A stretch of DNA of 44,627 nt from assembly GCF_003675875.1 (NCBI RefSeq), contig NZ_RCDI01000009.1:1-44627 (forward strand). The letters are read 5' to 3'. Under the pieces are notes generated by a model. It made no database searches and had not been told where the DNA came from. It was given only the letters and a program-made list of their open reading frames with translations. The translations under genes were made by a program, and so were the position numbers. Source of the stretch: Halostella limicola. Its GTDB lineage: Archaea > Halobacteriota > Halobacteria > Halobacteriales > Natronoarchaeaceae. Positions 1,893 to 44,627 of the stretch are shown piece after piece. The first letter of the stretch is position 1. Every line of letters starts with the position of its first letter.

Positions 1893-3440
1893 CTAGAAGA
1901 GGTACCGTGTGGCGAGGCCACCCTGTGCGTTCGACAGCGCTCGAAACTCCGCGTCACGGGCCTGGGCATCGGCGTTCATCGCCTCGGCCTGCGTCTGGTC
2001 CGGTTCGGTCTCGTTGATCGCGGCGTCGACGTCGAGGAGCCCGTGTTTCATTTCAGCTTCGGCGATCTTCGGCGCCGGGCGCGCGTACGTGCGTAAACGG
2101 TCGTAGATGTCGGCCGGCGCGAGGCCACCCGTCGCGCCCTGGAGGAGCGCGGCCGCGGCGGCCACGTCCGGTGCGGCCATCGACGTCCCCGATTTGACCT
2201 TCTTGCCGTCGGGCGTCATCGCCTCTACTTCCATCCCGGGCGCGCCGATGTCAGGCCGGGTACCGCTCGTGTTCCCACCCGAGTCGTCAAGCGTTCCGGG
2301 GTCGGGGCCAGTGTTCGCAAAGTAGGCGACCTTCCGCTTGGTCTCGTCGACCGTCGCCGTCGTCGCCGTCACGCCCAGCGCGTCGTCGGCGTCGCTCGGT
2401 GAGGCGGTCCAAATAGTGCCGAAGCGGTCGTTGCCCACCGCGACGAACACCGGGATACCGGCCTCGACGACGGCCGCGACGGCGTCCGCGATCGCCTGGG
2501 AGAACAGCGGACTCCCGAGGCTCATGCAGACCGCGTCGGGCGTCACGTTGAGCGTCAGCAGGTACTCCAGCGCGCCGACAATGTCGTCGGTGCTTCCGCT
2601 TCCGTCATCGTCGAGCGCTCGGAGAGCGAGAATGTCGGCCGCGGGGAGGAACCCGTCGTACGTCGAGTCCGACGCATTCGCCGCCATCTGCGACGTGACG
2701 AACGTCCCGTGTCCTGCGCCGTCCGAGAGCACTGAGAGGCCGCCCTCTGCGACCGTCGTGTTGCTGATGTGGTCCTTGCTCTGGTCGAGGATGCGGGTGT
2801 TGCCGCTCCCGTCTTCGAACACGGCGCCAGCGTTCAGGCCGGAGTCGATGACGCCGATAGTCAGCGTGCTCGTGTCGACACCGTGGCCGGTGGCGTACGA
2901 CGCCTCGCGGACCTGCTGCATCGGGGAGACTGTCGCGTCCTCGTTGAATGCGACGCCCGACGAGGACGGCACGCCGGCATCGAGTTGCCCGCTGGCCTTC
3001 GTCACTGTGCGCTGGGTGCGGGAGAGGCCGAAGTCCCACGCCGACGAGTCGTCGAGGGCGCCGAGCGGGTCCGGCAGTGACGCGACGATGTTGAGATCGA
3101 CCATCGACACGTAGCTCTTGTGCGCGAGGCCGGAGCCAAACCGACCACCTGTCACGTGCGGGCGCGGGGCGACGACCGTCATCATGTCGAGCTGGGAGTG
3201 CTCGCTCAGGATGCGTCGGTCCTCGTTGTCGTCGACCCACGTTCGGACCGAGTCGGCGCTGTCCGCGTCGTGTTTGACGACCCACGACGGGATCCCGTCG
3301 TCGAACATCTTGAGTTCGTCCGGCGAGGTCGTCGCGAGCGTCGTGAGGGCGCTGCTCCCGAAGAGGTTGCCCCCAAGGAACGGCACGGCCGCGGCGGCCG
3401 GGACAGCCTGGAGGAAGTCCCGGCGCGTCGGGTCCGTCAT
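1893..3440 (-). CDS. Tat-secreted subtilisin-like serine protease (S8, halolysin-like), 515 aa
   Basis: A Tat signal is at the N-terminus (TRRDFLQAVP, hydrophobic to about residue 28). The catalytic triad is clear: Asp199 in GVIDSG, His244 in GHGTFV and Ser420 in SGTSMAAP, with oxyanion Asn337 in AVGND. Residues 30-180 form a propeptide-like region. The family consists of secreted endopeptidases; halophilic members fold before export through Tat. Its start overlaps the stop of the 1247-aa gene (ATGA). Position inside the surface-protein operon suggests processing of element-encoded surface proteins or opening of the recipient S-layer; that role is inferred. Confidence 0.93.
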   Translation of the reverse strand: MTDPTRRDFLQAVPAAAAVPFLGGNLFGSSALTTLATTSPDELKMFDDGIPSWVVKHDADSADSVRTWVDDNEDRRILSEHSQLDMMTVVAPRPHVTGGRFGSGLAHKSYVSMVDLNIVASLPDPLGALDDSSAWDFGLSRTQRTVTKASGQLDAGVPSSSGVAFNEDATVSPMQQVREASYATGHGVDTSTLTIGVIDSGLNAGAVFEDGSGNTRILDQSKDHISNTTVAEGGLSVLSDGAGHGTFVTSQMAANASDSTYDGFLPAADILALRALDDDGSGSTDDIVGALEYLLTLNVTPDAVCMSLGSPLFSQAIADAVAAVVEAGIPVFVAVGNDRFGTIWTASPSDADDALGVTATTATVDETKRKVAYFANTGPDPGTLDDSGGNTSGTRPDIGAPGMEVEAMTPDGKKVKSGTSMAAPDVAAAAALLQGATGGLAPADIYDRLRTYARPAPKIAEAEMKHGLLDVDAAINETEPDQTQAEAMNADAQARDAEFRALSNAQGGLATRYLF

Positions 3441-6400
3441 GCTGCCACCCCCGTCGTCGGCGAGGTTGTGGCGACGGTGTTCTGCGGTTCGGCGGCCGGT
3501 GCCGTGAGGCCGGTCGTGACGACCTCGGTCGGCAGGCCACCGAAGAGGTCGAAGATGAAGTCGACGATCATGAACGGGTTGATGTCCGGGAGCGTGCGGT
3601 CCATCCAGTGACGGGCGCGGTCGTAGTAGCCGGGGTCGCGCGTGATCTCCACGACCGCGACGCCTTGCGCGTTCGTGCGCGTCTGGATGACGTGTTTGTT
3701 GTCGCCACGTTCGTCGACGGCACCATACTGGGTCGTTCCGTCGTGGGTGAACGCGTTGTCGTTGACCCAGAGCAAGGCCGAGTCCTCGAATGTCTCCGTG
3801 TGGATCTCGACGGCCATGTGCGACCGGACGGTCTCGCGGTCCTCACCGCGGAGGACGCGGACCTCTATCTCGTCGGTACCGCTCTGCATCACGCTCTGTG
3901 GTTCAACAACGACCTTCCCGGGTGCGTTTTCGCCGCCGGGGATGACGCCGGACACCGTGAGACGATCGCCGTTCTCCTCAACACGTGCGGAACGGAGACC
4001 TTCACCGGCGAGTGCGTGGGTGCCGCTCGGTCCGCGCCGGGCGCGGATGGTCGGCGGCTGGCTCGTCGAGGACTCCTCGGCACGGAGGCTGAAGGTTTCG
4101 ACGAACGGGTCACCGCCCTGATTGCTATACTGTGCGCGCACGAAGTGCGAGCCCTGACTCTCAGGGGTGAAGCTCACGCGGCCGTTGTCGCGGATGGTCG
4201 CGTTGACTACCGTGCCGTCGGGTGCGTAGACGTCGACCGCCTCTATCTGCCCGTAGCCAGTGCCCGATTCGGCGCGGAGCTGGAACGTGACGCGCTCGTC
4301 GACGCCGGGCCGGAGCGTGTTCACGTCGATAGCGTTGAGGTTGGGCACGTCGCCGCTAAACTGCGGGTTGACGATGCGTGCCGTCTCCTCGCCGACACCG
4401 TCCTCGCTGGCGGCGCGAACACGAACGTTCGCGACCGCGGCGTCAGTGGTTTCGATGGGGAACTCGTTTATCTCGACGGACTGGGAGCCGACGAGGCCGC
4501 CGTCTGAGAGTTCCCAGTACTCGTCGGGCATCTGTTGGACCGTCCCGTTACTCCACACGATTTCGACGGCGACGTTCTCCTCGTCGACGCCGTCGGGGAC
4601 CGGGAACGACCCGGAGATCGTCGAGAGCGACTCGTTGACCTCTTCGACGCTCGTCTCGGCGTCGCCCATATCGATGCGGTTGGCCTGGAACGACGCCGAC
4701 TGCATCTTGTCGATCTGCGTGCGGAGTTCCTCATTGGAGAGTTCGCTCGGCTCCGGGACTTCCTCGTAGCCGGTCTCGTTGAGGTAGTACTCCAGTGCTG
4801 GCGGGTAGCCCTCGACGAGTGAGCGAGAGTTGTTGTAGAGGCTCACCAACTGCGCGCGCGTGACGTTTTCGAGGCGCTGCTCGTACTGGGCCTCCAGGTC
4901 CGCGATCGTCTCGTTGAGTCGGAGGTTTTGCGCCCACTCCAGTAGGTCGGCGTAACTACTCATGTTCAGGTTCGGCACTTCCGGCGACTTGATCGTCTTC
5001 ACAGTCACGTTCTGCGCGGGCGGGTTCGCGCGGTCCGGTTCGGGGCTGGGCAAGATAAACGACCCGTTGTAGTCGCCCTCGGCCGCGTCGCGAAGCGTAT
5101 CCATCGACACGTTCTCCGTGTTCTGAAGGACTTCGCCGTCGACGCGGTATGCCTGCATCTGGACCGTGACGACGTTGTCCGGGACATCAACCGAGAACGA
5201 CCCATTTTCGTCGGTTGTCGTGGTACGCCGCACGACCTCGTCGTTGTTGACCATCGTCCGAACGCGGTCGGCGCGGTCGGTCAGTTGCTCGTGTTCGTCG
5301 CGGAGGTCCTGCTCGATGCGGTTTGCGAGCTCGTCAGCGTCGCCGTGGACGAACGTGTAGCCCTGTTCCGGGGCGCCCTCAGGATATACTCGGTAGACGC
5401 CCGACGGGAGTTGCGTGCGGACGCCGTGGTGTTCCTGTTGGTTTACTTGGTTGCCAGTTCTTGCGACAACCTCTGATTCGTAGGTCTGTCTGTTCGTCAC
5501 TTCGCCAGACGGGCTCAGTTGCTCAACGACAATCGACTGTTGCTCAGGCGTGCCCGGGAACGAGTTAATGACCGGGTTCCCCACGAGCTCTCTGTCAGTC
5601 GCGTCCCAGACCGAGATGATTACCGGCTGTTCGGACGACGTTTGGAGTTTCGGGTCATCTATCTGGTCGGTGGTGAGTGCGTTCTGGAGGTCGTACTCTC
5701 GCCCCCAGTCGTCAGCTTCGTGGACGAGTAGGTAGGTACCCGACTGGTGTTCCTCAAGGTCGTACGACTCGTTCCACGAGTTCGGCAGTGGATTTTCGAG
5801 GTCGTCGAGGAGATCGTCGGCCTGTTGTTCGAGCGATTCGGCGTCGCTCGTGTTGAGCGCCGGTTCTGCGACGCCCCACACTTCGACGGTCGTGTTCGCC
5901 GGAACGGGGTCGCCGTTCTGGTCGATTACTTGACCCCCAATAGCGACACTAGTTGGGCCGGCATCACCGATATGTCCAAACGTAGCATCCTCAATTCTGG
6001 AACCCTCACTACTCGCCTCGCCCCCAGTATCAATAGAGTGGAAATATCCTTCACCATCACCCACCATCACGGACCCATCAACAACCGTTGGGTCACTCCT
6101 CATCAGTGTCGATGTTGTCGAGTACGTCCACGCTTGAGACCCGCTCGAATCGACTGCGTAGACATCCCCATCATTTGCTGCGAAATAGATATTATCACCA
6201 GCCACCGTCGGGCTAGTGAAAATGTTGTCAGTTGGGTTTGTAAACTCCCAATTGACGGAGCCAGTATCCTCGTCGAGCGCAGCTAATCGGGATGATGAGC
6301 CATTATACGTCGTTACGTAAACGGCGCCGTTATGCACGGTGGGAGCTGTTCTGACTTCGCCGAGGTCTGCTGTATTTGACCACACCACGGAACCATCGCT

Positions 6401-7180
6401 GGCATTGAGTGACGTCACTCCCTCACTCGTTGAGTCTGACGTGCTGTAAGAGCCAGCAAAGACAGTTCCATTAACGACAGTCAATTCCCGGGCTATTGGC
6501 CCGATGCTAGTTGACCATTCTTCACTGCCAGTCGCCGCATCAATACCATACACATTGCCGTCGCCAGTCCCTACGTAGATAGTGCCGTTTTGAACAGTCG
6601 GGTTATAGACCGTCCCCCCAGGCGTCGTGAATGCCCATTCTTGGTCTCCACTAGTAGCGTTTACTGCATATAGGGTCTGATCAGAGCTACCAGCATACAC
6701 TGTTCCGTTATGGTAAACCGCCGAGCCACCGATTACATCTGACGGAGACGTGAACTCCCATTCTTCAACACCCGTATCTGCATTCAGGGCGAGCAACGAA
6801 TCATTATGAGTTCCAACATAGACAGTTCCCCCAGCTACATGAGGGGTTGAAAACGACATATTACCAATAGAGTAAGTCCACTTCGTCGACCCATTTTCAG
6901 TGTATACGGCGTGGACAGTTCCATCAGAGAAACTATTGTCATTCACTGAGGTGAAATAGGCAACCCCATCCACGATCGTCGGAGCGGACCGTATTGATGC
7001 TGAGTCACCTGAGGATTGGGATGCATTATGTGTCCATTCTTCGTCCCCAGCAGCTACTACTGCTGTCGTATCTGTACTTGCTGTCGCGGGAAGGCTAACA
7101 AATGGACCGATGATGCTCCCCACGAGCAATACTGCCAACACTGCGGAACGGATTTGATTCTGGTTTTGTTTGGTCATCAT
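3437..7180 (-). CDS. Large secreted protein with eight-blade PQQ-type beta-propeller, 1247 aa
   Basis: Sec signal peptide at residues 1-35, ending near ATAST. Residues about 45-395 contain eight propeller blades of the form AlxAxTGxxxWxF (for example ALNADTGVEEWEF). A carboxypeptidase-regulatory/Ig-like stretch follows (GGQVIDQNGDPVPANTTVEV, about 415-435), then long helical or coiled parts (about 600-660 and 730-850), more Ig-like segments, and a hydrophobic stretch near 1190-1215 that may anchor it. Many NxT/S sequons. PQQ-type repeats here are probably structural or adhesive rather than an enzyme. The propeller-coding DNA (about 5940-7140) is visibly more AT-rich than the rest, suggesting an exchanged head domain. 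Candidate major spike or adhesin of the particle or transfer apparatus. Confidence 0.85.
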   Translation of the reverse strand: MMTKQNQNQIRSAVLAVLLVGSIIGPFVSLPATASTDTTAVVAAGDEEWTHNASQSSGDSASIRSAPTIVDGVAYFTSVNDNSFSDGTVHAVYTENGSTKWTYSIGNMSFSTPHVAGGTVYVGTHNDSLLALNADTGVEEWEFTSPSDVIGGSAVYHNGTVYAGSSDQTLYAVNATSGDQEWAFTTPGGTVYNPTVQNGTIYVGTGDGNVYGIDAATGSEEWSTSIGPIARELTVVNGTVFAGSYSTSDSTSEGVTSLNASDGSVVWSNTADLGEVRTAPTVHNGAVYVTTYNGSSSRLAALDEDTGSVNWEFTNPTDNIFTSPTVAGDNIYFAANDGDVYAVDSSGSQAWTYSTTSTLMRSDPTVVDGSVMVGDGEGYFHSIDTGGEASSEGSRIEDATFGHIGDAGPTSVAIGGQVIDQNGDPVPANTTVEVWGVAEPALNTSDAESLEQQADDLLDDLENPLPNSWNESYDLEEHQSGTYLLVHEADDWGREYDLQNALTTDQIDDPKLQTSSEQPVIISVWDATDRELVGNPVINSFPGTPEQQSIVVEQLSPSGEVTNRQTYESEVVARTGNQVNQQEHHGVRTQLPSGVYRVYPEGAPEQGYTFVHGDADELANRIEQDLRDEHEQLTDRADRVRTMVNNDEVVRRTTTTDENGSFSVDVPDNVVTVQMQAYRVDGEVLQNTENVSMDTLRDAAEGDYNGSFILPSPEPDRANPPAQNVTVKTIKSPEVPNLNMSSYADLLEWAQNLRLNETIADLEAQYEQRLENVTRAQLVSLYNNSRSLVEGYPPALEYYLNETGYEEVPEPSELSNEELRTQIDKMQSASFQANRIDMGDAETSVEEVNESLSTISGSFPVPDGVDEENVAVEIVWSNGTVQQMPDEYWELSDGGLVGSQSVEINEFPIETTDAAVANVRVRAASEDGVGEETARIVNPQFSGDVPNLNAIDVNTLRPGVDERVTFQLRAESGTGYGQIEAVDVYAPDGTVVNATIRDNGRVSFTPESQGSHFVRAQYSNQGGDPFVETFSLRAEESSTSQPPTIRARRGPSGTHALAGEGLRSARVEENGDRLTVSGVIPGGENAPGKVVVEPQSVMQSGTDEIEVRVLRGEDRETVRSHMAVEIHTETFEDSALLWVNDNAFTHDGTTQYGAVDERGDNKHVIQTRTNAQGVAVVEITRDPGYYDRARHWMDRTLPDINPFMIVDFIFDLFGGLPTEVVTTGLTAPAAEPQNTVATTSPTTGVAA

Positions 7181-11892: not shown

Positions 11893-12162
11893 TTACGAAC
11901 TAAGAATGTCTTCTATCTCGTCAATTTCGTCATTAGTGAGTTCGCCCTGGAGGCGGCGATCGCCCTTCTCCGTGATCTGGTAGAGGCTTGCTTGCTCATC
12001 CGCATACTCGACGAGACCCGCGTCGTGGAGCTTCCGAATCCGCTTGCGGACGGTATCGGCCTTGTAATCGATGTTGGCAGCGATGACTTTGGGCGTCGAC
12101 ACTAACGGTTCCTCCGACCCGTTATTCAAGAACTCAAGAATATGGTCGGCGGAGCCGCTCAT
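11893..12162 (-). CDS. PhiH1-type winged-helix repressor, 89 aa
   Basis: ADHILEFLNNG, PKVIAANIDYKADTVRKRIRKLHDAGLVEY and YQITEKGDRRLQGEL match the haloarchaeal phiH1 repressor-like winged helix. The ATG at 12162 follows a GAGGGTGG stretch and gives the usual family start; an ATG at 12186 is the alternative. On the minus strand GATAAAATC (near 12233) could be its TATA box. The upstream ATTGATT cluster is the likely operator region. Confidence 0.8.
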   Translation of the reverse strand: MSGSADHILEFLNNGSEEPLVSTPKVIAANIDYKADTVRKRIRKLHDAGLVEYADEQASLYQITEKGDRRLQGELTNDEIDEIEDILSS

Positions 12163-12234
12163 GCCGGCCACCCTCTGTCGTCGCATTTCGTCCGTAGTTC
12201 GGACATTGGTGTGTTAACTGTCGTGGTGTGATTT

Positions 12235-12376
12235 TATCAATCCTTAGGGTCGCGGTACGCCACCCACAGTACCATTGATTGGAGTACGTTCGTGAGTAGC
12301 ATTGATTGTAGTCCCCGAATGAATTGATTAACTTCCGTTTTCTAGCGGTTGCCAATCATTAGTACTATGGATTAGA
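12235..12376. repeat. Cluster of ATTGATT-type repeats
   Basis: Copies of ATTGATT occur at 12274, 12301 and 12323. Reverse-complement relatives ATCAATC (about 12237) and CAATCAT (about 12353), and a GGATTAG (about 12368), extend the set. The first copy lies in a GTAC...GTAC bracket and the last two bracket a TAGTACTA palindrome. They sit upstream of the 11893-12162 repressor. They are either repressor operators or iteron-like repeats at the edge of the putative origin. Confidence 0.5.
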
Positions 12377-12773
12377 GTTAAGTAGGTGCGTTGATACATG
12401 GGTTACATAGATGCCACTCGTCGTGAATCCCGTCCGGAAAACGAATGCCGGACCGCGGGTCCAGCGCGGTCGCGGCGTGTGGCGTCTATGCACCAAAAAG
12501 CACCGTTAACGCCATGATGTACTCCCACACCCATCGGAATAAAGCTACTCCCCAGATGACTAGGGGTGTCGCTGACCGACAGGTGTGGATGCGTGGCGTT
12601 TTCGGAAACTCTTCGGAATCGCAAATTCCGGGTGGTAAGCAGTCCTTACTCCACGAAACCGACGAATGCTCCGAACTCCGGAAACTCCGGAAAGACCCCC
12701 ATTCGATTAAAGTAGCACCGTATCGTCACGTCAAGTACGGAAACGCTCGCGAGCGGTTCCCGAGGATTGACGT

Positions 12774-12829
12774 CGCGCTGTATAGGCAGCGCGGAACAAG
12801 CTCGATCAACGCAACCCAGCGAAGTCCCA
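12774..12829 (+). ncRNA. Candidate structured RNA, copy 1 (TATAGG hairpin plus conserved tail)
   Basis: Stem CGCGCTG (12774-12780), loop TATAGG (12781-12786), stem CAGCGCG (12787-12793). Then AAGCTCG (12798-12804) and CAACCCAGCGAAG (12812-12824), followed by CCC and an ATG at 12829. The same loop, the same AAGCTCG and the same 13-base tail recur at 16349-16429, again ending just before an ATG. Repetition in two intergenic regions argues for a functional RNA or DNA element; strand is assumed from the downstream ATG. Confidence 0.5.
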
Positions 12830-12917: not shown

Positions 12918-12941
12918 CCCGTTGGTTCGATTACCAGCGGT
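12918..12941. promoter_or_regulatory. Dyad operator O1, before the coiled-coil/MCM genes
   Basis: CCCGTTGGT (12918-12926), 6-base spacer, ACCAGCGGT (12933-12941). It matches the two operators at 16233 and 16268 in half-site and in spacer length. A TATA-like TTTATTA (12911-12917) lies immediately upstream, so bound protein would block transcription towards 13120. The likely binder is the winged-helix protein encoded at 15981-16217. Confidence 0.65.
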
Positions 12942-12965
12942 GTAAGGAGAAGTCACTAACCACGC

Positions 12966-13096
12966 GAGAAACCGAGGATGGTAGGACACTCTCGGTTTCT
13001 CTCCGGAGCGAATTAAGCGTTTCCCCGCAGAGCGGCATCTCTGCGCACGGAAACGCCGGGCCGGACGCTGTCCTCGCGCAGCGGCGACTTCGCGAG
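12966..13096 (+). promoter_or_regulatory. Three consecutive strong stem-loops in the leader of the MCM operon
   Basis: Stem 1: GAGAAACCGAG (12966-12976) pairs with CTCGGTTTCTC (12991-13001). Stem 2 is two-tiered: GCGTTTCC (13017-13024) with GGAAACGC (13049-13056), and CGCAGAG (13026-13032) with CTCTGCG (13039-13045). Stem 3: CTCGCG (13073-13078) with CGCGAG (13091-13096). Together they occupy most of the roughly 180 bases between operator O1 and the ATG at 13120. They are either a regulatory RNA leader or origin secondary structure. Confidence 0.55.
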
Positions 13097-13119
13097 TCCA
13101 AACAGTCGTCAATCCACGC

Positions 13120-13710
13120 ATGAGTCAGGAAGACAGCAACACCCGAGACGAGGAAGAGATCCAGACGCTCCGTGCGCGTGTCAGGAAAGTCGAGGACTAC
13201 TCGAAGGAGTACCTCAAGTCCCGCGTCGACACGCTCGAAGACGAGAACCAGATGCTTCGGAAAGAGCTTGAGCATCTGCGCGCCGAGCTCGAGGAGACGA
13301 AGCAGGAGATCGAGGCGTTCACTGGCCCCAGCGGCGGCCGGTCGCCCCCGGAGAAACGGGCGGCCGACCTGAAGCACGCACTCATCCGCGCTGCGGAAGA
13401 GGCGAGCAACGCGTCCGTGAACAAGGCCGGTGCGAAGAAGCACTACCGTGACGCCTGGGAGTCACTGGCCGAAGCGGGCCACACGGACCTCAACAAACCC
13501 GACGTCTACGACGCCATGGAGGACGCCGCAGAAGCCGAGGGGTTCTTCCTTGGACAGAAGTCGTGTGACGGTCGGAAGATCAAGGCGGTCGGCGTGAAAC
13601 TCGACGAGTTACCGGCCCACGAACGCGGTAGAGATTCTACTACTGACGGAGAGGAGGCGAACCTCCAGAACCCCCAAACTTCCGCCGTGACTGAACCCGA
13701 AACCAACTAA
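13120..13710 (+). CDS. Coiled-coil, possible winged-helix protein upstream of MCM, 196 aa
   Basis: Residues 12-68 are a heptad coiled coil (EEEIQTLRARVRKVEDYSKE onwards). Residues 80-165 are a helical domain (KRAADLKHALIRAAEEASN, GAKKHYRDAWESLAEAGH, DVYDAMEDAAEAEGFFLG) reminiscent of a DNA-binding winged helix, followed by a disordered acidic tail. First gene after the hairpin-rich region and upstream of MCM, so an origin-binding, helicase-loading or regulatory role is plausible but unproven. No family name recognised. Confidence 0.75.
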   Translation: MSQEDSNTRDEEEIQTLRARVRKVEDYSKEYLKSRVDTLEDENQMLRKELEHLRAELEETKQEIEAFTGPSGGRSPPEKRAADLKHALIRAAEEASNASVNKAGAKKHYRDAWESLAEAGHTDLNKPDVYDAMEDAAEAEGFFLGQKSCDGRKIKAVGVKLDELPAHERGRDSTTDGEEANLQNPQTSAVTEPETN

Positions 13711-13726
13711 CCCACAATATCACACC

Positions 13727-13864
13727 ATGCCCCCCACTGTAAGCAACACTCCACTACTCGCAAGTACAGATTTAGAAAGCGTGCTCAGCGTGCTGTGTAG
13801 CGGCTCTACCCGGCGGTTGGGTAGTAGTAGAAAGTCTACTGGCGTCTCGGGAGGTGGCGAGTGA
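13727..13864 (+). CDS. Possible small ORF overlapping the MCM start, 45 aa
   Basis: An ATG at 13727 opens a 45-codon frame whose TGA (13862-13864) overlaps the MCM ATG. It begins MPPTVSNTP and includes LESVLSVLCSGSTRRLG, which looks like the first helix of a haloarchaeal winged-helix protein but is cut short. Ser-rich and not acidic. It may be a degenerate HTH or a coupling ORF for the helicase. The MCM Shine-Dalgarno lies inside it. Confidence 0.35.
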   Translation: MPPTVSNTPLLASTDLESVLSVLCSGSTRRLGSSRKSTGVSGGGE

Positions 13865-15984
13865 TGGCGGCCTCTCTGGAGGACCTCGACTACCAGGAGC
13901 AGGACTACGTGGACGAGTTTACCGCGTTCATCCGCGACTACTACGACAACCGCGATGGGTCCGGGGAGAACCGTCTCGGCGAGCTCGTCGAGAAGTACCC
14001 CAGCGAGAAGTCGTCGCTCCACATCGAGTGGATGGACCTCTACCGCTACGACAGCGAGATGGCGATAGATGTCCTCGACGACCCCGAGACCCTCGACTAC
14101 GCGGAGATCGCGCTCCGCAACTACGACCTTCCGGTCGACATCGAACTCAACGCGGACGTGCGTATAGATGGTCTCGACCGCGTCCCCGACAGCGTTCAGT
14201 GCGACGTGGGGGACCAGATCCACCGTGAAGGGAAGTTCGCCGCGATCGAGGGCCAAGTGAACCGTGTCGGTTCCAAGGTCGGCTTCATCGAGGAAGCGGC
14301 GTTCGAGTGCCAGCGCTGCGGGACGATGACGCGCATCCCGCAGTCTCTCGGCGACTTTCAGGAACCGTACGAGTGCAAGGGCTGCGAACGAGAGGGTCCG
14401 TTCCAACTCAACTGGGACCAGTCCCACACGACTCACGCCCAGCGCGCCCGTCTCCAGCTCCCGCCGGAGAAGACGGCCGGCGGCCAGACCTCTTCAGAGA
14501 TAGAGATCTGGCTGAAGGGCGACCTCGTGAACCGCTACACCGAGGACCAGTACCGGATCACTCCTGGCGACCGCGTCTCGGCGATGTGTCACCTGGAGAA
14601 GTACGTTCCCGACGACGCCGATGACGGTACGTACGACGTCCGCGCGAAGGCGAACAACATCCAGAAGCAGGAAACCGACCTTGAAGATCTCGACATCACC
14701 GACGAAGACCTCGAACGCATCAGGGAGATCGCGAACAACAACCCGCACCAGACGCTCGTCAACTCGTTCAAACCGTCTCACCACGGCGACGAGTCGGTGA
14801 AGGAAGCGCTCGTGCTCCAGTTGTTCGGCGGTGTCGAGAAGCACACACCGGACGGCGCCCGCATCCGTTCGGAACCGCACATCCTCGTCGTCGGTGACCC
14901 TGCGATGGGGAAGTCCGACCTCCTTCAGTACGCGACGAAGATCGTTCCCCGCTCCGTCTACACTGTCGGGAACAGTTCGACGGGCGCGGGCCTCACGTGC
15001 GCGGCCGTGCAGGACGACTTCGGCGATGGCGGCTGGACGCTCGAAGGCGGCGCGCTCGTGAAGGCCAACGGCGGCCTCTGCGCGATCGACGAGTTCGACA
15101 AGATGGATGAATCGGACCGTACGGGGATGAACGAGGCCATGTCGAACGGCCAAATTTCGCCTTCGAAGGCGGACATCTCGAACGTCCAACTTCCGGCGAA
15201 GACGACTGTCCTCGCAGCGGCGAACCCCGACTACGGTCGCTTCGACCCGTACGAGTCAATCGGCGAGCAGATCGACCTCGACCCGACGCTCATCTCTCGA
15301 TTCGACCTCATCCTGACGATGCAGGACAAGCCCGACCGGGACGAGGACGAGGAGCTGGCCGAGAGCGTTCTCAGTCTTAACCAGGACTCCATCGACATCA
15401 AACGAGATGACAAGCCGGCGGGGGACACCGACATCGATCCGGAAGTCCCGCCCGAACTGATGCGCAAGTACATCGCGTACGCGCGTCAGGAGATCGAACC
15501 GCGCATCAGCGATGCCGCCAAGGAGCGAATCAAGGAGTTCTACGTGCCGCTTCGCGAGAAGGGCATGGACGAGGACAAGCCTATCCCCGTGACGGCGCGG
15601 AAGCTCTTCGCGATCGTCCGTCTTGCCGAGGCCAGCGCGAAGATGCGTCTCTCCGATACGGTCACCGTCGACGACGCCGAGCGCGTTATCGGCGTCGTCC
15701 GTGACTCGCTCAAGGACGTGGGCGTCGACCCCGAAACCGGCGAGTTCGACGCCGACGTGGTCGAAACTGGATCCTCGAAATCCCAGAGCGACCGCGTCAA
15801 AACTGTCGATAAGGTCATAGACATGCTAGAGGAAGAGAACGATAAGGGCGCCCCTGTCGACGAAGTCATTAAAATCTGCGTTGAGAAGGGATTCACGGAA
15901 CACCGGGTCAAAAAGACGATCGAAAACCGCAAGCAGGAGGGAGAATATTACCACCCCCGTGATGGATATCTGCGACTAACTTAG
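13864..15984 (+). CDS. mcm: MCM replicative DNA helicase, 706 aa
   Basis: Archaeal MCM: N-terminal OB/zinc domain with Cys149, 152, 171, 174 (CQRCG...CKGC); AAA+ Walker A GDPAMGKS (344-351); Walker B AIDEFD (Asp409-Glu410); sensor 1 Asn454 in AAANPDYG; arginine finger Arg479 in ISRFD; C-terminal winged helix (about 630-706). It forms a hexamer that unwinds DNA 3' to 5' at forks. The ATG at 13864 is chosen because GGAGGTG (13850-13856) is 7 bases upstream; a GTG at 13861 is the alternative. It probably drives the element's own replication, since no other Rep-type initiator is visible. The stop overlaps the convergent regulator gene. Confidence 0.96.
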   Translation: MAASLEDLDYQEQDYVDEFTAFIRDYYDNRDGSGENRLGELVEKYPSEKSSLHIEWMDLYRYDSEMAIDVLDDPETLDYAEIALRNYDLPVDIELNADVRIDGLDRVPDSVQCDVGDQIHREGKFAAIEGQVNRVGSKVGFIEEAAFECQRCGTMTRIPQSLGDFQEPYECKGCEREGPFQLNWDQSHTTHAQRARLQLPPEKTAGGQTSSEIEIWLKGDLVNRYTEDQYRITPGDRVSAMCHLEKYVPDDADDGTYDVRAKANNIQKQETDLEDLDITDEDLERIREIANNNPHQTLVNSFKPSHHGDESVKEALVLQLFGGVEKHTPDGARIRSEPHILVVGDPAMGKSDLLQYATKIVPRSVYTVGNSSTGAGLTCAAVQDDFGDGGWTLEGGALVKANGGLCAIDEFDKMDESDRTGMNEAMSNGQISPSKADISNVQLPAKTTVLAAANPDYGRFDPYESIGEQIDLDPTLISRFDLILTMQDKPDRDEDEELAESVLSLNQDSIDIKRDDKPAGDTDIDPEVPPELMRKYIAYARQEIEPRISDAAKERIKEFYVPLREKGMDEDKPIPVTARKLFAIVRLAEASAKMRLSDTVTVDDAERVIGVVRDSLKDVGVDPETGEFDADVVETGSSKSQSDRVKTVDKVIDMLEEENDKGAPVDEVIKICVEKGFTEHRVKKTIENRKQEGEYYHPRDGYLRLT

Positions 15985-16217
15985 TCGACGAGCTTCCAGA
16001 CGTTCATATTCCCCATATCGACTTTCTCAACCACGTCGGCCTCTTCGAGTTCCTTCAGACGACGATCGGCGAGGCTCTGGGAACACCCGACGCGTTCCCA
16101 GATGGCCTTCGTCGCGGGCACGTCGAGCTCGCGAATCGCGTCGAGGAACTCCTCGTCAGAGTACTTCTGGGCAAACCGGTTGTTGTCGGCCCGTGGTTGA
16201 CGATCCGGTGAAGACAC
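15981..16217 (-). CDS. Winged-helix regulator, probable autorepressor, 78 aa
   Basis: SDEEFLDAIRELDVPATKAIWERVGCSQSLADRRLKELEEADVVEKV is a winged-helix pattern of the phiH1/MarR-like type. The start GTG at 16217 is preferred: the TATTATTA inside operator O2 (16242-16248) lies about 25-31 bases upstream, which fits leaderless transcription. A TTG frame from 16265 would place both O2 half-sites in coding sequence. It is the natural candidate to bind O1, O2 and O3 and so coordinate the MCM operon, itself and the 16441 array. Confidence 0.75.
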   Translation of the reverse strand: MSSPDRQPRADNNRFAQKYSDEEFLDAIRELDVPATKAIWERVGCSQSLADRRLKELEEADVVEKVDMGNMNVWKLVD

Positions 16218-16232
16218 ATGCTGACTAATGCG

Positions 16233-16256
16233 CCCGCTGGTAATAATACCAACGGG
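16233..16256. promoter_or_regulatory. Dyad operator O2 over the regulator's TATA box
   Basis: CCCGCTGGT (16233-16241), AATAAT spacer, ACCAACGGG (16248-16256). The AT-rich spacer reads TTATTA on the minus strand and probably is the TATA box of the 15981-16217 gene, so binding would give tight autorepression. Same half-sites and 6-base spacing as O1 and O3. Confidence 0.7.
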
Positions 16257-16267
16257 ATTGTTCAACC

Positions 16268-16291
16268 CCCGTTGGTTTCTTTACCAACGGG
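16268..16291. promoter_or_regulatory. Dyad operator O3 facing the 16441 gene array
   Basis: Perfect 9-bp dyad CCCGTTGGT (16268-16276) / ACCAACGGG (16283-16291) with a 6-base spacer, 35 bp from O2. It lies upstream of the plus-strand array starting at 16441 and can control it. It is followed by a small GTAC-TAA-GTAC dyad near 16294-16304. Confidence 0.7.
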
Positions 16292-16328
16292 AAGTACTAA
16301 GTACCCGGACACATAACGTAGTGAGTAA

Positions 16329-16430
16329 GAGCGCCCGACGGACGGCTGTATAGGCAGTCTGCGTCAGAAGGCATCGGTGTATAGGCACCGATGCGAGTGG
16401 CGCTCGAAAAAGCTCGCAACCCAGCGAAGC
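16329..16430 (+). ncRNA. Candidate structured RNA, copy 2 (two TATAGG hairpins and conserved tail)
   Basis: Outer stem GAGCGCC (16329-16335) / GGCGCTC (16399-16405) encloses two hairpins with the same TATAGG loop: one weak (CTG/CAG core, loop 16349-16354) and one perfect 9-bp stem, GCATCGGTG (16371-16379) / CACCGATGC (16386-16394). Next come AAGCTCG (16410-16416) and CAACCCAGCGAAG (16417-16429), as in copy 1. It ends 11 bases before the ATG at 16441, so it may act as a 5' leader on the array. Three-way-junction fold is inferred. Confidence 0.55.
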
Positions 16431-16440
16431 CCCAAGCGCC

Positions 16441-17007
16441 ATGAAAGCCTACACGACACCCAGTAAAAAATCCGACGGTAGTACCGCAAACCTTTCAAGT
16501 AGCTGCGATACCTGCGGCGCCGACGCCCGCAGGTTCGGCCGCAACGGCCGGATCGACGTCGAGTGCCCCAACTGCGGCGTCATCGACACGACCGCCGACA
16601 AGCAGATCGTCGCGGACGGCGGCGTTCCGCAGTCGGTCTCCATCCTCGAACACATCCGCGACACGGGGGGCCGCTCCGACACGCTCCAGCGCTTCGCCGC
16701 GGGCGAGCTCGTCCGCGACGAACTGACCACGCGAGACGTGACGCGCCCGGTCGAACTCGCGATGGGCGACCTCTGCATCACCGTCGAGTACCCCGGAAAG
16801 ACGGAGTACGTCTGGCCGACTGAAGTCGGCTGGGTCGCTCACACCGTCCACCACGATCGCCAGACCGACTGGGGGCCGATTCCGCTGTCGCTCGACGAGG
16901 TCGAACGCCGCGTTCACTCACTCGGCCACACGCTGACGATTCGGGCCACGTCGACGGTCTCCTTCGACCGCCCCGACGCCGCACTCTCCCAGGGGGTGCG
17001 TGCCTGA
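16441..17007 (+). CDS. Zinc-ribbon protein opening the small-gene array, 188 aa
   Basis: A zinc ribbon at residues 22-46 (CDTCG...CPNCG) is followed by an HTH-like helical part (SILEHIRDTGGRSDTLQRFA) and a beta-rich C-terminus containing LCITVEYPGKTEYVW. No known family recognised. It follows the TATAGG structured element directly and its stop overlaps the next ATG. Cytoplasmic; possibly a nucleic-acid-binding regulator. Confidence 0.78.
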   Translation: MKAYTTPSKKSDGSTANLSSSCDTCGADARRFGRNGRIDVECPNCGVIDTTADKQIVADGGVPQSVSILEHIRDTGGRSDTLQRFAAGELVRDELTTRDVTRPVELAMGDLCITVEYPGKTEYVWPTEVGWVAHTVHHDRQTDWGPIPLSLDEVERRVHSLGHTLTIRATSTVSFDRPDAALSQGVRA

Positions 17008-25975: not shown

Positions 25976-26365
25976 TCAGTAATCGAGTTCTTCGAGCATC
26001 TCCGCCAGCTCGTCGGCGTCGGCTTCGTCAACGCGCTCCAGTCCGTACTCTATGACCAGCGGGTAGTAGTGCCGGTTCTTCTCGAACCCGTCCTCGAACG
26101 CCCGCTCGTAAGTCGCCTTGACGGAGTTGAAGACGAGACCGAGTTCTTTCTTCTGCCCTGGCGGGAGGTAGACGTACACTCCTTCGTGTTCGTCCTTCAC
26201 AGACTGTTCGTCCGTCTCGTCTGGTTCGGACTGTTCTGACTGTTCTGCTTGTTCGGATGGTTGTGACGTTTGTGATGGTTCGGACTGTTGGTCTTCCCTA
26301 TCTGGTTCGGATTGTTCTGATTCCTGCCGGCGCCGGCGCATCCGCTGGGCGCGATCGTCGGTCAT
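25976..26365 (-). CDS. ParA-partner protein (ParB/centromere-binding type, inferred), 129 aa
   Basis: Basic start (RAQRMRRRRQE), then a Gln/Ser/Glu low-complexity linker (about 15-58), then a folded C-terminus (GVYVYLPPGQKKELGLVFNS, KATYERAFEDGFEKNRHYYP). The start overlaps the ParA stop (ATGA), the usual position of a partition partner. No ParB N-terminal or HTH signature is visible, so the assignment rests on position. The linker is coded by imperfect GTTCGGACT repeats. Confidence 0.7.
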   Translation of the reverse strand: MTDDRAQRMRRRRQESEQSEPDREDQQSEPSQTSQPSEQAEQSEQSEPDETDEQSVKDEHEGVYVYLPPGQKKELGLVFNSVKATYERAFEDGFEKNRHYYPLVIEYGLERVDEADADELAEMLEELDY

Positions 26366-43071: not shown

Positions 43072-44556
43072 CTACTCGTTTGCTCGTTGAACCTCAAACA
43101 CGGTTCTCCCCTCGTTCACTTCGCCGTTGTTTGCCTTCGCAACGACAGTAAGCACCTGCCCTTCGAGGAGATACACTGATTGATTGATGGTAAGTGACTG
43201 TCGGTGATTTTGGCTCCCACTGAGATCATTCTCCGAGAACCGAACTTCGGATCCGTCGCGGTGGAGAGTGGCGTATATCTGATGGTCTGATGTTTGCCCT
43301 GTGAATTGCAGTGTGGCGTCGACATCGTACCAGCCCGTTGTGGGGGCAACGTAGCCATTATCTGGCTCTGAGAAAGCCCGCTCGAAGTCAGGAGCAACCG
43401 TGTCGAACGTCACCGTCTGCTCACTCCCGTCCATCGTTTGCGCTCCAAGTGAACTGCTCTTGAATATCCGAGCGTATGCTGACTTCGTAGCCGTTGGAAC
43501 CGCGACCCCCAGTGACCAATCATGATTCTCGTCCTTTCCGTCAACAATCGCCATCGGCTCGCCGCCCCAGTCGCCCGCAAGAATGTCCATATGGTGCATC
43601 CCCGTCCGACGCCACGTACTCTCAATGAGTGAGTTGTCACCTCGAAGAATTGGGGACGTGTCCACCTCGGACCAACTAAACGACGACGTAGAGAGGTCAG
43701 TAATGCGGAACCAACGGACTTGCGTATTCGTCTGGTCCTCGATTGGCAATTCGATATGGTGAGGGTAGACGTGAGCACGGCCAGCGCCACCTTCCTCCGT
43801 CGAATCTGCCCCAATAGGGCTGTTGGCGTGTTCTGTCCACGATCGTCCCGTGATACTACGTCCTTCATCAGCGTACCACAGGGTTGCTTGGCCGTTCGTC
43901 GTCGTGATTAGATACCAACGGCCTTCCCACCAGATAGGCGTCGGGTCGCTGTTGGCCGCCCCTGTGAGAATCGTCTCTTGTAGCGTCGGAGACGGCGTTG
44001 AATCGAACCCGTCGAACGTGTATATCTGGACGCCATTGCCCGAGTGTGACGGGAGTAGATACCACTGGTCGTCGATTTTTCGAAACAGTGAGTAGGAGTA
44101 ATTGACCCCATCGGCTTGCCCGTCGAGGACCGTCCCAGATTGATAGGACAGGGAATCGGGAGAGGGGCCTTTCCAGTAGCCGATATTCTGAGAGTAGCTC
44201 CCGTCGCCGTCGTCGTCATGCTTGATTTCGGCCAGGAGATGGATCGTCCCGTCGACTGCCCGCCAGAACGGGTCTGCAATGAATCTGACGTTGTTGAGGT
44301 CGGTTACGTCCGACGCAGACACAACAGGATTCGAGAGTTGCGGGTGTTCCTTCCACGCTGGCGAGCCACCGAACTCCCCACTCATCACGTCGTGGGGGTT
44401 GTTTTGCGAGAGGTCCGCCCGTGCGCTTCGCGTGGTGCGTGCTTGCTCTGTATGTAACGATTCGGTTTCGGACGGTGGGAGCTGATACCGCTCGTCTGAT
44501 TCAGCGAGCTCACCGTCGTCGTTCTTTTCCGCTCTCGAAAGGTCTCGGTTGGACAT
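43072..44556 (-). CDS. Spike-like protein: beta-propeller plus C1q/TNF-like jelly roll, 494 aa
   Basis: Residues 1-65 are hydrophilic with no signal peptide. Residues about 75-365 repeat a five-blade-propeller pattern (RFIADPFWRAVDGTIHLLAE, SYSLFRKIDDQWYLLPSHSG, DPTPIWWEGRWYLITTT), as in GH43/GINT1-type carbohydrate-binding propellers; the usual hydrolase acids are not evident. Residues about 380-494 have a C1q/TNF-like trimer domain: GYVAPTTGWYDVDATLQFTG, IYATLHRDGSEV, VYLLEGQVLTVVA. This two-part build resembles phage receptor-binding proteins. Its DNA is more AT-rich than neighbours, suggesting acquisition. Starts across the junction after a GGAGG Shine-Dalgarno. Confidence 0.8.
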   Translation of the reverse strand: MSNRDLSRAEKNDDGELAESDERYQLPPSETESLHTEQARTTRSARADLSQNNPHDVMSGEFGGSPAWKEHPQLSNPVVSASDVTDLNNVRFIADPFWRAVDGTIHLLAEIKHDDDGDGSYSQNIGYWKGPSPDSLSYQSGTVLDGQADGVNYSYSLFRKIDDQWYLLPSHSGNGVQIYTFDGFDSTPSPTLQETILTGAANSDPTPIWWEGRWYLITTTNGQATLWYADEGRSITGRSWTEHANSPIGADSTEEGGAGRAHVYPHHIELPIEDQTNTQVRWFRITDLSTSSFSWSEVDTSPILRGDNSLIESTWRRTGMHHMDILAGDWGGEPMAIVDGKDENHDWSLGVAVPTATKSAYARIFKSSSLGAQTMDGSEQTVTFDTVAPDFERAFSEPDNGYVAPTTGWYDVDATLQFTGQTSDHQIYATLHRDGSEVRFSENDLSGSQNHRQSLTINQSVYLLEGQVLTVVAKANNGEVNEGRTVFEVQRANE

Positions 44557-44627
44557 GTACTGAAAACCTCCGTTAAATCTGGGTCGTCCGCTGCGTGTCG
44601 TCGATCGCCTCTGCCGCCCGCCCGACG
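44501..44627. repeat. Terminal direct repeat, right copy (circular overlap)
   Basis: Identical to 1-127. After removal of one copy the circle is 44,500 bp. Minus-strand bases 44573-44627 duplicate the 3' end of the 325-aa gene, whose full copy lies at 73-1050. Confidence 0.95.

Follow-up and report, generated by a model that had tools for sequence, protein, structure and literature searches.

For mobile elements of archaea, very few repressor–operator pairs are known, namely those of phiH and phiCh1. In phiH, the genes follow the order repR, repH, imm and T1 operon, and the transcription starts of imm (LX3), T1 and T4 have been mapped. T1 is an early lytic transcript, the region neighbouring it confers immunity, and transcription of imm has been recorded as constitutive. 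The phiH replication operon is held by RepR; this protein and Rep of phiCh1 are winged-helix repressors whose target is a divergent early promoter ahead of the replication genes (PMC4284463). A further point of comparison is the plasmid pR1SE of Halorubrum lacusprofundi, which spreads in vesicles encoded by itself, and MCM is the commonest replication gene of such plasmids (20 of 41; PMC10818511).

Our analysis concerns a control block in the window, by which we mean the whole stretch of DNA analysed (44,627 nucleotides, from Halostella limicola). Read from left to right, the block consists of a RepR-like gene (minus strand), genes for a coiled-coil protein and an MCM helicase (plus), the gene of a 78-aa protein (minus), and an array of small genes (plus). 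These orientations equal those of repR, repH, imm and the T1 operon in phiH. The features are as follows.

11893 to 12186, minus strand: RepR-like second winged-helix regulator, PHROG 2440, as is the phiCh1 repressor Rep (ORF48); counterpart of phiH RepR
12918 to 12941: O1, putative operator dyad, 7 of 9 arm pairs, directly after CCTTTATTA, the likely TATA of the replication operon
13120 to 13710, plus strand: coiled-coil protein, first gene after O1; a homologue precedes MCM in pHALXA03
13864 to 15984, plus strand: MCM helicase, convergent with the 78-aa gene
15981 to 16217, minus strand: 78-aa winged-helix regulator, homologue of phiH Imm and phiCh1 ORF55, PHROG 18890, with a presumed GTG start
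16233 to 16256: O2, putative operator dyad, 8 of 9 arm pairs, over the likely TATA of the 78-aa winged-helix gene
16268 to 16291: O3, putative operator dyad, 9 of 9 arm pairs, directly beside the likely BRE/TATA (GGGAAGTACTAAGT) of the small-gene array
16441 to 17007, plus strand: first gene of the small-gene array, divergent from the 78-aa gene

The two ends of the contig share 127 bases (1–127 and 44501–44627), so the window closes into a 44,500-base circle. Nine of its proteins match pR1SE in collinear order, an 823-aa protein shares 48% identity with its pR1SE counterpart over almost the full length, and the conserved structural gene clusters of pR1SE-like vesicle plasmids (apHPV) are present. 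Because the element is pR1SE-like, it need not be a lysogenic virus. It differs from pR1SE and the apHPVs as they have been described, in a paper that makes no mention of a repressor or helix-turn-helix regulator (PMC10818511). The control block is of interest as one common to vesicle-plasmid-like elements and tailed viruses. The window also encodes a tyrosine integrase and, at 3437–7180 on the minus strand, a 1247-aa protein with PQQ-type beta-propeller repeats that matches a pR1SE protein.

The sequence-only reading had described one dyad in three places, always with a 6-base spacer, and had proposed a scan for more copies. The pattern CCCGYTGGT-N6-ACCARCGG indeed matches exactly at 12918, 16233 and 16268, and no further exact site exists on the circle or in the rest of the 4.1-Mb genome (4,117,014 bases scanned), in which the reversed control pattern has no match. 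When up to 3 mismatches were allowed, the window gave 6 strand-matches, which are the three sites on both strands, compared with a mean of 0.61 and a maximum of 4 in shuffles. Window half-sites at 26055 (minus) and 34961 (plus) both lack the partner arm. The promoter context given by that reading also agrees with the likely promoters that we deduced from sequence at all three sites. O2, which reads CCCGTTGGTATTATTACCAGCGGG on the minus strand, appears to cover the TATA of the winged-helix gene, and its centre lies 27 bases before the GTG at 16217. O3 starts 35 bases after the start of O2 and faces the array at 16441, with its centre about 45 bases before the predicted array start and just upstream of the likely BRE. 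O1 is immediately preceded by CCTTTATTA, which probably serves as the TATA before the MCM genes.

We consider it probable (roughly 0.75) that O1–O3 are operators of an Imm-type 78-aa repressor that represses its own gene and silences the array and the replication operon. The 78-aa protein would bind each dyad as a dimer, with one recognition helix per CCCGYTGGT half-site. At O2 it would cover its own TATA, resulting in autorepression; bound to O3, it would abut the array BRE; and from O1, downstream of the TATA but ahead of the replication-operon start, it would block the MCM promoter. With both early operons shut, the element would remain quiet, and incoming elements of equal specificity would be excluded. 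Binding, dimerisation, repression, immunity and any inducing signal are what we infer for the window.

Given their positions after and on a TATA, respectively, O1 and O2 would almost have to act by blocking; for O3, both blocking and activation are possible. The haloarchaeal regulator OxsR activates from a site just upstream of the BRE (PMC9426492), so O3 may not repress. By its described features, OxsR (TrmB-like) resembles the window regulator in its single winged-helix domain, its semipalindromic site near the BRE/TATA and a conserved cysteine; it differs in being a chromosomal redox regulator, and its site differs from the window dyads (PMC9426492). The 78-aa protein might accordingly repress itself and the replication operon through O2 and O1 and yet activate the array from O3, in a bistable system with mutual reinforcement of array and regulator. 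O3 lies in a position like that from which OxsR activates, and in relatives one dyad lies between the two BREs, which speaks for such activation. We nevertheless regard it as unlikely, since T1 of phiH is an early lytic transcript beside a region that gives immunity, and repression of the array fits this better.

The 78-aa protein is predicted to fold as a winged helix with the recognition helix at residues 47–59 and the wing at 63–76 (pLDDT about 90 from residue 21 on; three rows from plasmid records were left out of the alignment used). A fold search returned generic winged-helix matches, none of them at E 0.001, the best Pfam matches fell under the curated cut-off, and NCBIfam gave no match. 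Against PHROG, the protein matched 18890 (2e-8) and, weakly, 2440 (5e-5), and the neighbouring regulator at 11893–12186 matched 2440 at 2.6e-20. Cys45, which immediately precedes the recognition helix, is almost invariant in the 78-aa family and absent in phiH Imm; by analogy with OxsR, a redox role for this residue is possible. Before the RepR-like gene, three 18-bp direct repeats of the AGTACCATTGATTGGAGT type (12268, 12295 and 12361; 0.01 expected) occupy 12268–12378 and are possible candidate sites for the RepR-like regulator.

A check on co-conservation in relatives had also been proposed, and it favoured the regulator. From the upstream regions of 47 homologues, we derived a rule: a dyad of 22–25 bases, CC-N18..21-GG, with at least 7 of 9 paired arm bases, within −115 to −15 of the regulator gene, whose start codon is a prediction for many relatives. 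The regulator has its own dyad by this rule in 30 of 44 family loci (shuffles: mean 0.8, maximum 5), as do 12 of 499 upstream regions (2.4%) of other genes in the same loci. Since the rule was derived from this first set, it was tested on 34 loci outside the set, 21 of which carry such a dyad (1.2 in shuffles; 5.4% of random segments). About one third of the family members are without a dyad by the rule. Paired dyads like O2 and O3 recur in other family loci at distances of 28–36 bases. Thus, one sequence rule finds candidate operators for dozens of small regulators.

The dyads also covary with the recognition helix. In the first set, half-site similarity correlated with recognition-helix similarity with a Mantel r of 0.68, or 0.63 with the similarity of the rest of the protein removed. 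The coefficient was 0.51 with both sets pooled (n = 51), 0.36 with the large SYxLAY group removed, and 0.28 (partial 0.26) with one locus per distinct helix; these are similarity correlations in which descent is unmodelled, rather than a phylogenetic model, and p was 0.0002 in each test, the floor of 5000 permutations. Two loci of the second set agree with the pairing of helix and dyad in the first: L117 (helix SYDLAYR) carries CCGTTCAAT, and L112 (helix DRRTAYL) carries CCATTAGTC. The corresponding helix residues of the window protein are SQSLADR. The dyad tied to helix SYDLAYR may be CCGTTCAA-N6-TTGAACGG. Because related regulators have their own dyads in this position and the dyads covary with the helix, the 78-aa protein is the likely ligand of the window dyads. 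This link between operator sequence and recognition helix could allow a sequence-based prediction of immunity groups in archaea.

This covariation also bears on whether another factor, either the RepR-like protein (11893–12186) or a host protein, binds the dyads, their closeness to the 78-aa gene being incidental. A winged-helix regulator of the phiCh1 Rep family does adjoin the same operon. However, even between distant loci the dyad sequence changes along with the recognition helix of the 78-aa-type protein encoded next to it, the RepR-like gene has the candidate repeats of its own described above, and most dyad-bearing loci are without a RepR-like homologue in the stretch searched. We therefore judge binding by another factor to be improbable.

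With the 78-aa protein as query, no match was obtained in a viral-contig close-relative search or in tblastn of phages; a query with the family consensus (a typed consensus) found proteins of phiH, phiCh1, ChaoS9 and NVIV1. The family HMM matched phiH imm at 40.8 bits (E 1e-14) and phiCh1 ORF55 at 39.3 bits (E 1e-13), E-values that come from tiny searches of 1–4 sequences. As in the window, phiH Imm and phiCh1 ORF55 are homologous small winged-helix proteins encoded convergently with a replication gene and divergently from an early array, with a dyad of equal rule and place. Their dyads are of the CCCTCGACG..CGTCGATGG type, with centres about 44–46 bases upstream. That of phiH imm, CCCTCGACGCCTGTCGTCGATGG, pairs at 8 of 9 positions and is centred 45.5 bases upstream, between the imm start and the mapped T1 start, a position before T1 that parallels the position of O3 ahead of the array BRE; that of phiCh1 ORF55 is nearly identical. 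A candidate operator can thus be proposed for phiH Imm, whose gene is annotated as a probable immunity protein. Constitutive transcription of phiH imm gives no support for strong autorepression in phiH. Upstream of NVIV1 ORF20, phiCh1 ORF38 and the ChaoS9 protein, no CC..GG dyad with at least 7 of 9 pairs was found.

The systems also differ. The phiH and phiCh1 Imm proteins belong to PHROG 20952 and the window protein to 18890; 10 of 36 family members also match 20952, and the window protein matches 18890 and 2440 only. The replication protein is RepH in phiH and MCM in the window. Compared with the phiH immunity (L) region, the window has two dyads beside the regulator and a third at the replication operon. 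The window shares with phiCh1 and phiH a Rep/RepR homologue (11893–12186); in contrast, the 78-aa protein, with its weak match to 2440, probably lies outside the Rep family, and the MCM operon of the window also bears O1, which matches the sites of the other regulator. SNJ1 ORF4 is likewise a small regulator, acting in the lysis–lysogeny switch of a haloarchaeal virus, but it belongs to the MazE superfamily rather than to the winged-helix proteins (PMC12642351). The block had been called a lysogeny-like or copy-control switch. The homology of the regulator and the immunity-region layout of phiH and phiCh1 indicate that lysogeny-like is the right kind; copy-number control and switch behaviour we infer for the window system.

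The three-place operator had been taken to link the replication genes, the repressor and the array. All three sites stand in the window, whereas the link to the replication genes did not extend to relatives: in the plasmids L016, L017 and L019, which have the same MCM/regulator order as the window, no counterpart of O1 was found with each plasmid's own half-sites. A distal site before the replication genes is therefore not supported as a general feature. The Imm-type protein would have gained O1 in the window, tying both early operons to one regulator. In a group of loci with the SYDLAYR helix (L062, L067, L073, L076 and L083), weaker copies of a CCRTTCAA dyad lie about 2.2–2.7 kb upstream of the regulator, one in L067 at 3.6 kb, suggesting that this group has a distal site too. 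That the dyads are replication iterons, serving copy control by handcuffing rather than promoter control, is very improbable: they flank the MCM operon of an element that must control its copy number, but each of the three lies on a promoter element, dyads in most relatives are confined to the regulator promoter, and many dyads belong to loci that have no MCM match.

A second kind of shared signal occurs both in the array leader and ahead of the replication operon.

12775 to 12829, plus strand: second copy of the bipartite motif, preceding the O1 promoter; loop X as in the leader, in a hairpin at 12775–12792; Y 12810–12829
16322 to 16440, plus strand: structured array leader in the order A, hairpin with loop X, M, motif Y, A', AUG; A 16329–16335, hairpin with loop X (UAUAGG) 16371–16394, M 16399–16405, Y 16415–16434, A' 16435–16440

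Plasmid relatives of the window share this arrangement of the leader. Strand M can pair with A or with A', which touches the AUG. These pairings track each other across 13 elements: in a test on leaders picked by eye, the summed helix lengths were 106 and 83, compared with 90 and 69 when partners were swapped between elements (0 of 500 permutations for each pairing). An Rfam search of the leaders gave sub-threshold chance matches only. Y is duplicated on the same strand 2.6–4.5 kb away, before the replication operon, and the bipartite motif is present in nine relatives. By inspection, loop X of the replication-operon copy equals that of the leader in the window (UAUAGG), L016 (AUGGCG), L018 (UUGAGG), L020 (GUGGGA), L057 (CUGCCA) and L064 (CUGGAA). 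We considered the second copy as part of a conserved small protein and rejected this, as the reading frame, judged by eye, is not the same in all elements and is interrupted in L087.

X and Y differ between elements and agree within each, and a trans-acting factor that recognises them would place the two operons under joint control; the array leader could fold in two ways, leaving the AUG free or covered. We tentatively propose, with somewhat less than even confidence, that viruses and vesicle plasmids of this type in haloarchaea have an element-specific immunity code in two layers, consisting of an Imm-type repressor and its dyad at the DNA level and the shared X/Y motif on both early operons at the RNA level. 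T1 of phiH undergoes processing, and an antisense RNA begins at its start codon. An RNA layer of this kind also seems to be present in phiCh1, with a duplicated Y before ORF49, and in part in phiH, where the ORF49 homologue is preceded by partial copies.
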